From assembly GCF_000020525.1 (NCBI RefSeq), contig NC_011026.1:1842001-1906000 (forward strand): 64,000 bases of DNA, given 5' to 3'. This DNA comes from Chloroherpeton thalassium ATCC 35110 (lineage in GTDB: Bacteria; Bacteroidota; Chlorobiia; Chlorobiales; Chloroherpetonaceae). The first letter of the stretch is position 1; the number at the start of each line of letters is the position of its first letter. Below, piece after piece: positions 15,719 through 19,219 of this stretch. The notes beneath the pieces were generated by a model. It worked only from the letters and a program-made list of their open reading frames with translations, was not told the origin of the DNA and made no database searches. The position numbers and the translations under genes were made by a program.

Positions 15719-16246
15719 ATGGCTCAAAATGTTGAAGTAAAAGCCAAGATCGATTCAATTGATACGTTCATAAAAAAGGCGTCTCAGCTATCGAATCAAG
15801 AGTCTGAAACGATAAGCCAGGAAGATATTTTCTTTAATTGCAGCAACGGGCGCTTGAAATTGCGAATGATCGATGAAAAAAAAGGGCAGTTAATTGCCTA
15901 CGAGCGCCCCGATTCTTCCGGCCCAAAAATTTCCTCCTATAAAATATATGAGACTCCAGCGCCGCATGTTTTGAAAGAAACCTTGACAAAATCATGCGGA
16001 ATTCTCGGTATCGTGAAAAAAACACGCTATTTCTTTTTAATCGGGCGCACAAGGGTGCACATCGATCAGGTCGATGGGCTTGGTGCTTATTTTGAGTTAG
16101 AAGTAGTCCTTTCAGCTGATGAAAATGAAGAATCGGGCGTCCATGAAGCGGAAGCATTGATGGAAAAGTTTGGCATTGATGAGCGGCAATTAGTCAAAGG
16201 TGCATATTTAGATCTCTTGCTGAGTCAATCAAGTGAAGCCGTTTAG
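15719..16246 (+). CDS. CYTH-domain protein (class IV adenylate cyclase-like)
   Basis: A 175-residue protein with a CYTH fold, the phosphate-binding tunnel shared by CyaB-type class IV adenylate cyclases and thiamine triphosphatases. The N-terminal strand has EVKAK (ExExK-type motif), followed by RLKLRMIDEKKGQLIAYER, the KKTRYFFLIGRTRVHIDQVDGLGAYFELEV strand pair and the ending VKGAYLDLL. Substrate is not predictable; a class IV cyclase or a triphosphatase are both possible. Its last two codons (GCC GTT TAG) lie in the half attC-like sequence at the left edge of the mobile cassette, so the insertion junction touches the end of this gene without visibly truncating it. Confidence 0.8.
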   Translation: MAQNVEVKAKIDSIDTFIKKASQLSNQESETISQEDIFFNCSNGRLKLRMIDEKKGQLIAYERPDSSGPKISSYKIYETPAPHVLKETLTKSCGILGIVKKTRYFFLIGRTRVHIDQVDGLGAYFELEVVLSADENEESGVHEAEALMEKFGIDERQLVKGAYLDLLLSQSSEAV

Positions 16247-16261
16247 CGCCATGTTATGTGC
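16238..16261 (+). repeat. Left junction half-site of the cassette
   Basis: GCCGTTTAGCGCCATGTT followed by ATGTGC. It matches the right part of the complete attC-like site at 17882-17950. No left half (R''/L'' boxes) is present upstream in the CYTH gene, so this is a half site, as expected where a cassette joins a resident attI, attC remnant or secondary G-TT target. It overlaps the CYTH stop codon. Confidence 0.65.
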
Positions 16262-16293
16262 TAGAAGAAATGGTCGCAGATAATAGGAAATAA

Positions 16294-17097
16294 ATGAATA
16301 GCAAAGAAAGAATGAAATATCCTGAAGATTTTCTGAATAAATTTATTTGTGGTAATGCTGTGGATGTAATGAAACAAATCCCTGATGGTAGCATTGAGCT
16401 AGTTGTTACTTCTCCACCTTACAATCTAAAAAACTCTACCGGTAATGGCATGAAGGACGGCAGAGGCGGTAAATGGTCAAATGCAGCCTTAATAAATGGT
16501 TACTCACATTACAATGATAATATGCCACACGATGAATATGTCGAATGGCAGCGGGAATGTTTAGCAGAGATGTTGCGAATAATTCCTGAAAACGGAGCCA
16601 TTTTTTATAATCATAAATGGAGAGTTCAAGCAGGACTGCTGCAAGATAGAAATGATATTGTTTCTGGTTTTCCGGTTCGCCAAATTATAATTTGGCGAAG
16701 GAAAGGGGGGATAAATTTCAATCCAGGGTACTTTTTACCTACATATGAGGTTATTTACTTAATAGCCAAGCCAAATTTCAAACTTGCCAAAAAAGCGAAT
16801 GCACATGGAGATATATGGGAATTTGGTCAAGAAAGTAAAAACAAACACCCTGCACCATTTCCAGTTGAACTAATAGAGAGAATCATTTTATCAACAGATG
16901 CCGATGTTGTTTTAGACCCTTTTATGGGGTCAGGAACTACTGCACTGGCAGCTAAGAATCTTGATAGACAATTTATTGGAATAGATATTTCTCCAGAATA
17001 TTGTGAAATGGCGGAAGAACGTCTTGCTAATCCTATGTCCGTTATTAAACAAATAACAACTAACAAAAAAGAAAAGCAAGCAAATCTATTTGATTAA
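16294..17097 (+). CDS. DNA methyltransferase, probably N4-cytosine type
   Basis: Site-specific DNA methyltransferase of 267 residues. The catalytic motif is TSPPYNL (residues about 41-47); SPPY is the form most often seen in N4-cytosine enzymes. The AdoMet-binding motif is DPFMGSGTTALAAKNLDRQFIGIDI near residue 210, so the order (catalytic motif before FxGxG) is that of the beta class. AGGAA lies seven bases before the ATG. The MvaI- and BcnI-type endonuclease families are classically paired with m4C methyltransferases, which agrees with the gene 12 bases downstream. No lesion was seen. Protein and DNA are AT-rich relative to flanking genes, consistent with transfer. Confidence 0.88.
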   Translation: MNSKERMKYPEDFLNKFICGNAVDVMKQIPDGSIELVVTSPPYNLKNSTGNGMKDGRGGKWSNAALINGYSHYNDNMPHDEYVEWQRECLAEMLRIIPENGAIFYNHKWRVQAGLLQDRNDIVSGFPVRQIIIWRRKGGINFNPGYFLPTYEVIYLIAKPNFKLAKKANAHGDIWEFGQESKNKHPAPFPVELIERIILSTDADVVLDPFMGSGTTALAAKNLDRQFIGIDISPEYCEMAEERLANPMSVIKQITTNKKEKQANLFD

Positions 17098-17108
17098 ATT
17101 GGAAGAAA

Positions 17109-17882
17109 ATGAAAACTTACACAAAAGAAAGCCTTATTGAAGCGTTAAAAGATATTCGTAACCAAGGCTGGATACCAACAGGTAGAGCAAACAATGATGG
17201 TGGCGTCGGAAATACACTTGAAGATTTATTAGGTATTGAAGAAAACAACCTGCCCTTACCCAATGCCGCTTAATGGGAGTTGAAAGTACAAAAGAAATAC
17301 ACGACTTCATTGGTAACGTTATTTCATATGGAACCATCACCAAGAGCATTCAATTTTATACCTGCAATTTTACTGCCTGAGTTTGGATGGAAACATCAAG
17401 AAGCAGGTAGGAAATATCCTGAATCTGAAAGAAGTTTTAGGCAAACCATTTCTGCAAGCAATTACAGCAATAGAGGGTTTACTGTAAAAGTAAACAGACA
17501 AGAACAAAAAATCACTGTTGATTTTGACGGCAATAAAATTGATACAAACGCACATCCAGACTGGTCTCGTTTTGTAGCAGGGAAATCTATTGAAAACCCA
17601 CCGTATTGGGGATTTGATGATCTATTTCATAAAGTAGGAACAAAATTACATAATTGCTTTTTTGTGCGAGCTGAGTCAAAAAGAATCAATGGCGAACTTC
17701 ATTTTCATTATCAGGACATTTTTATGCTGAAAGCCCTTGATAAAAACAATTTCATAGATGCTGTTGAAAATGGAGATATTTATATAGATTTTGATGCCAG
17801 AACAGGGCACAACCACGGAACGAAATTCCGACTAAGAAATCAATCTTTTATAAAGTTATACAAGGAAGCAATAGCATATTAG
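17109..17882 (+). pseudogene. MvaI/BcnI-family restriction endonuclease, interrupted by an in-frame stop
   Basis: Read from the ATG at 17109 (GGAAG just upstream), the frame gives MKTYTKESLIEALKDIRNQG, TLEDLLGIEENNLPLPNAA, then TAA at 17271-17273 (codon 55), and continues in the same frame with WELKVQKKYTTSLVTLFHME to 17882. With the stop read through, it would be 257 residues, close to MvaI and BcnI. The C-terminal half carries family motifs (GFDDLFHKVGTKLHNCFFVRAESK, DARTGHNHGTKFRL). The stop falls two codons before E-L-K (E57, K59), the predicted catalytic ExK. A single base change from GAA, CAA or AAA would explain it. A downstream TTG restart at 17280 would lose the active site, so the enzyme is probably dead. 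Confidence 0.8.
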
Positions 17883-17950
17883 CACATAACAAGGCGCTGC
17901 ACCGGACGGTAATTCCGCTGCGCTCCATTGCCGCCGTTTAGCACCATGTT
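17882..17950 (+). other. attC-like recombination site (59-base-element type)
   Basis: Imperfect palindrome with the attC order: R'' GCACATAAC (17882-17890), L'' GGCGCT (17893-17898), stem CGGACGGTAAT (17903-17913) pairing with ATTGCCGCCG (17927-17936) around a GC-rich loop and leaving one extra A, then L' AGCACC (17940-17945) and the G|TT crossover at 17948-17950. In the circular cassette, R' would be GTTATGTGC from the left edge, perfectly complementary to R''. The unpaired A in the stem is a hallmark of attC recognition as folded single strand. It begins at the endonuclease stop codon, the usual gene-attC spacing. Confidence 0.7.
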
Positions 17951-18016
17951 TTCATCTTGGCGCGTTTTGCGCGGCGCTCATTATTTCGTCAGCAACCTAA
18001 GCTTTAAAAGGTATTC

Positions 18017-19219
18017 ATGCTCGTGAAAAGCATTTTCCTCTCATACGTTGCGTTTTGGTTTGCATCAGGTTCGTTGTTTGGATGCCAAAAAAGCAAGTAT
18101 CACGAGTTTGAGAAAGTCGATGCAGTCATTGAGGCAGCCATTGCCGATGGCGCATTTCCTTCGGCGGTTGTTGGGGTACTTCGGGAAAACAAAATCCTCT
18201 TTCACAAAGCCTACGGGAAATTGACCTATGAAAAAAATTCCCCAAAAACGACACTGAGCACGATTTACGATTTGGCTTCGCTGACCAAAGCGCTGGCCAC
18301 AACACTCTCGTTAATGAAGCTCTACGAGGAAGGCCAGTTTCGCTTAACGGATAAAGTCTCGCGTTACTTGCCTGAGTTGAAAGGAAATCACAAAGAAGAA
18401 ATTACCATTCGCAACTTGCTCTTGCATAATGCGGGTTTTGTGCCGTTCCGTCCGTTTATTCGCACCTGCTTTTCCCCCGATGATGTGATGCGGGCTATTT
18501 ATCAAGATTCGCTGTGCTACCCCACAGGCACCAAGACCATTTATAGCGATATCGATTTCATTTTGCTTGGTGAGCTCGTCCATCGCCTGAGCGGCAAACC
18601 ACTTGATGAATATTTCCATGAAAATTTCGCCAAGCCGTTGGGTTTAGAATCCACTTTTTTTTTGCCGCCAGACTCACTGCGCTATCGCATTGCGCCAACT
18701 GAAATCGATACAACTTGGCATTTGCCGCGAGCCAGACCGCTGGTGCACGATCCAAACGCCGCTTTGCTTGGGGGCGTCGCTGGACATGCTGGGCTTTTTT
18801 CAACTTCCGGCGACATCTTGCGACTGATGAGCATGGTAATGAACGGCGGAAAATTTAACGGAAAAGAAATTCTGAAGCCCGAAATTGTGTGGCTGTTTAC
18901 AAAGCGCGACACGGTTTTGCGTCAGCGCGCGCTCGGTTGGGATATGAAATCTCCTGGGGCGCATTCTTCGGCTGGAAAATATTTTTCTTTAGCAACCTTT
19001 GGCCATCTTGGTTTTACGGGCACGAGCGTTTGGGTAGATCCTGCGCGTTCGCTTTGTGTGGTTTTTCTCACGAATCGCGTGTATCCAAGTGCCTCAAATA
19101 AACGCATTCGCGCTATTCGTCCCAAATTGCACGACGCCGTCATAGAAAGCATTGAGCCGAATGCGCAGCCGGATACCTCATTTGCTGCTCCAGACACCTC
19201 GCACGCGGCCAGCCAATAA
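18017..19219 (+). CDS. Serine hydrolase lipoprotein, class C beta-lactamase / DD-peptidase fold
   Basis: Secreted lipoprotein of 400 residues. A signal peptide ends in the lipobox LFGC with Cys23. The catalytic S-x-x-K is SLTK (Ser88, Lys91, in YDLASLTKALATT); the Tyr motif is YSDIDFILLGEL, and HLGFTGTS stands in for the third (KTG-like) motif near residue 335. Family members are carboxypeptidases, esterases or beta-lactamases; without a closer homologue, no choice can be made. The long distance from other wall genes gives no help. The upstream 130 bases hold the right end of the cassette, so it may use a promoter at 17951-18016. Confidence 0.82.
   Translation: MLVKSIFLSYVAFWFASGSLFGCQKSKYHEFEKVDAVIEAAIADGAFPSAVVGVLRENKILFHKAYGKLTYEKNSPKTTLSTIYDLASLTKALATTLSLMKLYEEGQFRLTDKVSRYLPELKGNHKEEITIRNLLLHNAGFVPFRPFIRTCFSPDDVMRAIYQDSLCYPTGTKTIYSDIDFILLGELVHRLSGKPLDEYFHENFAKPLGLESTFFLPPDSLRYRIAPTEIDTTWHLPRARPLVHDPNAALLGGVAGHAGLFSTSGDILRLMSMVMNGGKFNGKEILKPEIVWLFTKRDTVLRQRALGWDMKSPGAHSSAGKYFSLATFGHLGFTGTSVWVDPARSLCVVFLTNRVYPSASNKRIRAIRPKLHDAVIESIEPNAQPDTSFAAPDTSHAASQ

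Follow-up and report, generated by a model that had tools for sequence, protein, structure and literature searches.

A premature stop codon beside the active-site motif of an MvaI/BcnI-family endonuclease paired with an intact methyltransferase in an integron gene cassette

In the chromosome of Chloroherpeton thalassium ATCC 35110, an intact DNA methyltransferase gene is followed by the frame of an MvaI/BcnI-family restriction endonuclease that is interrupted by a single stop codon (Table 1). The window, i.e., the whole stretch of 64,000 nucleotides that was analysed (G000:C1:1842001-1906000), belongs to a genome represented by one contig of 3,293,456 bases and 99.86% complete. From the ATG at 17109 the frame reads MKTYTKESLIEAL...LPLPNAA, meets TAA as codon 55, continues with WELKVQKK... 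and stays open until the TAG at 17880-17882. A profile search placed the N-terminal piece on columns 1-43 of PF15515 (E 2.9e-13) and the C-terminal piece on columns 46-227 (E 6.5e-43), both in register with the family on either side of the TAA. With X at the stop, the frame matches columns 1-227 with E 4.6e-63 and 213.7 bits against a curated cut-off of 25, which is far beyond chance, and a separate genome search returned the same single PF15515 match with '1 TAA' inside. The first-pass annotation of this DNA had described a lone in-frame TAA beside the E-x-K motif, with the N- and C-terminal segments sharing one frame, and both observations are borne out by the reading of the frame and by the match that runs across the two pieces. 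The catalytic E-x-K corresponds to codons 57-59 (GAG 17277, TTG 17280 and AAA 17283, encoding Glu57, Leu58 and Lys59), the TAA being two codons ahead of the catalytic Glu. With the uninterrupted frame of the family lost at codon 55, the window endonuclease is a broken member of PF15515.

Table 1. Features of the methyltransferase-endonuclease locus, in positions of the window
Feature	Position	Strand	Evidence
Half-attC-like stretch bordering the cassette on its 5' side; overlaps the stop codon of the CYTH gene	16238..16253	+	Direct repeat D2; 15/16 bases shared with the attC of the cassette
Integron gene cassette, 1695 bp, with both genes	16254..17948	+	Complementary ends, rejoined attC, GC
DNA methyltransferase, PF01555 (N6_N4_Mtase), 267 aa, intact	16294..17097	+	Profile match, motifs, conservation
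N-terminal part of MvaI/BcnI-family endonuclease, 54 codons + stop	17109..17273	+	PF15515 columns 1-43
Premature TAA, codon 55; a Glu codon in all aligned relatives	17271..17273	+	Alignment of relatives
Endonuclease remainder, 202 codons + natural stop, starting WELK	17274..17882	+	PF15515 columns 46-227
Catalytic E-x-K codons Glu57, Leu58, Lys59	17277..17285	+	Alignment with R.MvaI and R.BcnI; Glu57 and Lys59 invariant
attC (R''-L''...L'), last base the G of G/TT	17882..17948	+	Complementary ends, matches elsewhere, fold

A scan of the species-genome collection yielded 78 relatives of the endonuclease from many phyla, 68 of which could be aligned by position at codon 55, and all 68 have Glu there (GAA in 57, GAG in 11). 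Their context, NLP(I/L)PNA(A/S/T)E-WE(L/I)K, has the same length as in the window, and this identical spacing rules out an indel as the lesion. Since the spacing is unchanged and Glu is present in 68 of 68 relatives, the lesion amounts to a single substitution, which has hit an acidic codon under strict conservation. The expectation of the first-pass annotation that the family carries a sense codon at this site was thus correct, and the segment 17109-17270 does align with the PF15515 family, with the relatives and with R.MvaI and R.BcnI, as that annotation had required of a true family N-terminus. In an alignment of 31 sequences, E55, E57 and K59 are all invariant; the column of codon 55 holds Asp in R.MvaI and Glu in R.BcnI. 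A stop at codon 55 was found in none of the 68 aligned relatives. About 9 of the 78, mostly on draft contigs, have stops or frame breaks in the endonuclease gene, all at other sites, so loss of the endonuclease is not rare.

The read-through protein was modelled with a pLDDT of 87 and a pTM of 0.84, and in this model the stop falls directly ahead of the strand 56-62 that bears E57 and K59. When the model was searched with Foldseek, the good matches among solved structures were MvaI/BcnI enzymes only (2oaa, 2odh, 2odi and 2oa9; E <= 1e-14). Both residues of the E-x-K of PF15515, Glu57 and Lys59, are encoded in the window, yet downstream of the stop, and the position of the first catalytic Asp, i.e., the column of MvaI Asp50, is occupied by Asn52. 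Within the subfamily, 63 of 64 members have Asn in this column, and Glu55, three residues on, is conserved. Codons 52 and 55 (17262-17264 and 17271-17273) could therefore mark a variant active site of this PF15515 subfamily, and, to judge from the conservation pattern, Glu55, the residue hit by the stop, may stand in for the first catalytic Asp in metal binding. A second MvaI/BcnI-like subfamily was observed in same-order genomes (L038-L043), where it is common in one genus; its members of about 470 aa have an extra N-terminal domain and carry a classical PD-x4-EVK motif. The possibility that these long Chlorobi relatives are methyltransferase fusions was rejected, as they form a different subfamily with an N-terminal domain of its own.

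The decay of both genes was assessed against 64 intact relatives in a leave-one-out scheme, with columns at least 97% conserved taken as near-invariant. The endonuclease departs in 1 of 66 such columns, namely at the stop. The other 65 conserved codons show no change at approximately 156 nonsynonymous sites, which limits neutral divergence after the loss to about 0.019 substitutions per site (95% upper bound). An old pseudogene is ruled out by this bound of about 2% neutral divergence. With no near-invariant column altered except that of the stop, the lesion is either a recent nonsense change or else a base-call error. The methyltransferase matches PF01555 (E 1.5e-44), has, in conserved form, the catalytic (D/S)PPY-type motif (TSPPYN) and the SAM-binding motif (DPFMGSGTT) of beta-class N4/N6 enzymes and shows 0 departures in 104 near-invariant columns, in agreement with the earlier description of the upstream gene as intact. 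Approximately half of the endonuclease relatives adjoin methyltransferases that are 65-82% identical to that of the window.

Both genes form one integron gene cassette ending in an attC site, a setting that was absent from the first-pass annotation. The sequence GCACATAACAAGGCGCTGCACCGGACGGTAATTCCGCTGCGCTCCATTGCCGCCGTTTAGCACCATG/TT lies directly 3' of the endonuclease stop, and TTATGTGC at 16254-16261, the first bases past the upstream junction, is complementary to the start of GCACATAACAAGGCGCTGCACCGGACGGTAATTCCGCTGCGCTCCATTGCCGCCGTTTAGCACCATG and completes the R' of the free cassette. Complementarity between the ends extends over a 19-nt inverted repeat (16245-16263 with 17880-17898, 95%), and when the ends are rejoined, a 75-nt attC results whose outer stem measures 10 bp. 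The bottom strand of this attC folds at -22.2 kcal/mol, while shuffled sequences have a mean of -8.5 (sd 2.3) and 0 of 300 shuffles fold as low; complementary R''/R' across the ends and a single-strand fold of the attC kind are thus both present. The GC content of the cassette is 36.6% versus 44.6% in the genome sample. Rfam models gave nothing close to threshold in 16000-18200. At the 5' boundary, the half-attC-like stretch may be what was left when a deletion removed an adjacent cassette. The sister genus (G001) allows no direct empty-site comparison, as its CYTH gene has other neighbours.

Closely similar attC sites occur elsewhere with unrelated genes. Sites 93-95% identical over 58-60 bases were found in a same-order genome (L175) and in IMG/VR contigs (L199, L233 and L238); in L199 and L238 the attC comes after a HindIII-type endonuclease and a methyltransferase, and the sequence past G/TT differs between the contigs. 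A 91% match on the Geoalkalibacter plasmid pGSUB1 (L248) comes after genes for a NERD protein and a methyltransferase, and in two same-order genomes matches of 86-91% follow putative genes that we read as FkbM-like. The half-site spelling GCCGTTTAGCRCCATGTTA was not found in viral contigs. A strict script applied to the surroundings of the intI genes of the genome detected no further attC; it also misses the attC of the window because the R' bases at the 3' end of this site belong to the target. The best integron-integrase gene of the genome, at about 1210232-1211332 (L141 6233-7333), scores 429 bits to TIGR02249 and lies approximately 650 kb from the cassette. Its match shifts frame near the end, covering columns 1-294 and then columns 292-313 in another frame, and in our reading of the sequence the change probably precedes the expected catalytic tyrosine. 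Like the endonuclease gene, the integrase gene thus belongs to this mobile system and carries a single lesion. Further integron-integrase remnants are present at 1688646-1689526 and 1077219-1077368 of the chromosome, one with many stops and one a short fragment.

MvaI cuts CCWGG and BcnI cuts CCSGG (PMC7337904), and by homology the target of the window system is predicted to belong to the CCNGG class. In a genome sample of 464 kb (L249-L268 and the window), CCNGG occurs at 0.70 of expectation, W and S alike, and is the second most depleted interrupted 5-bp palindrome after GGNCC (0.34). The depletion is consistent with a CCNGG-class enzyme having acted on this genome in the past and does not point to the enzyme of the window in particular. 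Strong avoidance was seen in the same sample for CTAG (0.07 of expectation) as well as for GGNCC, a sign that the genome may host further restriction or repair activities.

The best explanation of the locus, to which we assign a probability of about 0.8, is that a Type II system lost restriction through one nonsense change, while its intact methyltransferase can still modify the host. The methyltransferase and the MvaI/BcnI-family endonuclease would have entered the chromosome as a pair in one integron gene cassette, a later single-base change at codon 55 would have abolished the endonuclease, and the untouched methyltransferase would still be able to modify the genome. Loss of restriction with retention of modification had been proposed for this DNA before, and it is the reading best favoured by the stop, the Glu in 68 of 68 relatives and the intact methyltransferase. 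The stop is probably real in the living strain, as judged from one sequence of it; no active endonuclease is then likely to be made, and the methyltransferase is presumably expressed.

The main competitor is a sequencing or assembly error at the TAA, in which case the living strain would make a complete, working endonuclease. The lesion comprises one base, the rest of the gene is intact, as a base-call error would also leave it, and the integrase gene elsewhere likewise carries a single lesion. However, the genome is a single contig of high completeness, so the base quality is probably high, and the proportion of relatives with an endonuclease gene broken elsewhere makes real loss common enough to be expected; we regard an error as distinctly improbable, though worth bearing in mind. 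Much less probable still is a leaky or reversible stop that keeps the cassette system in a modification-only form, with rare read-through or reversion restoring some restriction. Such read-through, if it occurs, would fit the perfectly conserved downstream frame, for which a recent loss accounts equally well; the lack of a stop at codon 55 in any of the aligned relatives gives no sign of selection for it, and the 64-kb window has no unusual tRNA. Finally, split-enzyme subunits or a restart giving an active C-terminal enzyme are very unlikely, the least probable of all: both pieces are open frames and TTG 17280 is a possible start, but this first in-frame canonical start past the stop lies beyond the catalytic Glu codon at 17277 and so cannot yield an active enzyme, the ATG at 17273 that overlaps the TAA sits in another frame, and the product ending at residue 54 consists, in the model, of two helices without a catalytic residue.

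The arrangement is already known in kind and represents an ordinary, probably recent loss of restriction, not a new type of system. The window enzyme belongs to the same family as R.MvaI and R.BcnI (PF15515; PDB 2oaa and 2odi) over its whole length by sequence, and its model resembles theirs (Foldseek E 2.2e-19 and 2.0e-15) with the E-x-K in the same place; it differs by the stop at a position held by Asp in MvaI and by Glu in BcnI and by the Asn of its subfamily at the first catalytic Asp column, and its specificity is predicted. Methyltransferases accompanied by endonuclease pseudogenes have been reported, e.g., in Mycoplasma agalactiae (PMC9465063). The locus shares with such solitary-methyltransferase Type II systems an intact methyltransferase beside a broken endonuclease, and it differs in its single nonsense codon, the absence of further decay and carriage by an integron cassette. 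Methyltransferase cassettes are known from phages (PMC9892861) and restriction-modification from Xanthomonas integron arrays (PMC12444791); these likewise consist of genes closed by an attC, whereas the window cassette is solitary, remote from the best intI gene and carries a broken endonuclease.

No new mechanism is needed for the window cassette. Closely similar attC sites terminate cassettes that carry at least three kinds of restriction or nuclease-methyltransferase pair, and a systematic count would therefore be worthwhile. The locus offers a clear and probably very young case in which Type II restriction was lost and the methyltransferase stayed intact inside an integron cassette, and it is a small data point on the origin of solitary methyltransferases and on integrons as carriers of restriction-modification pairs.
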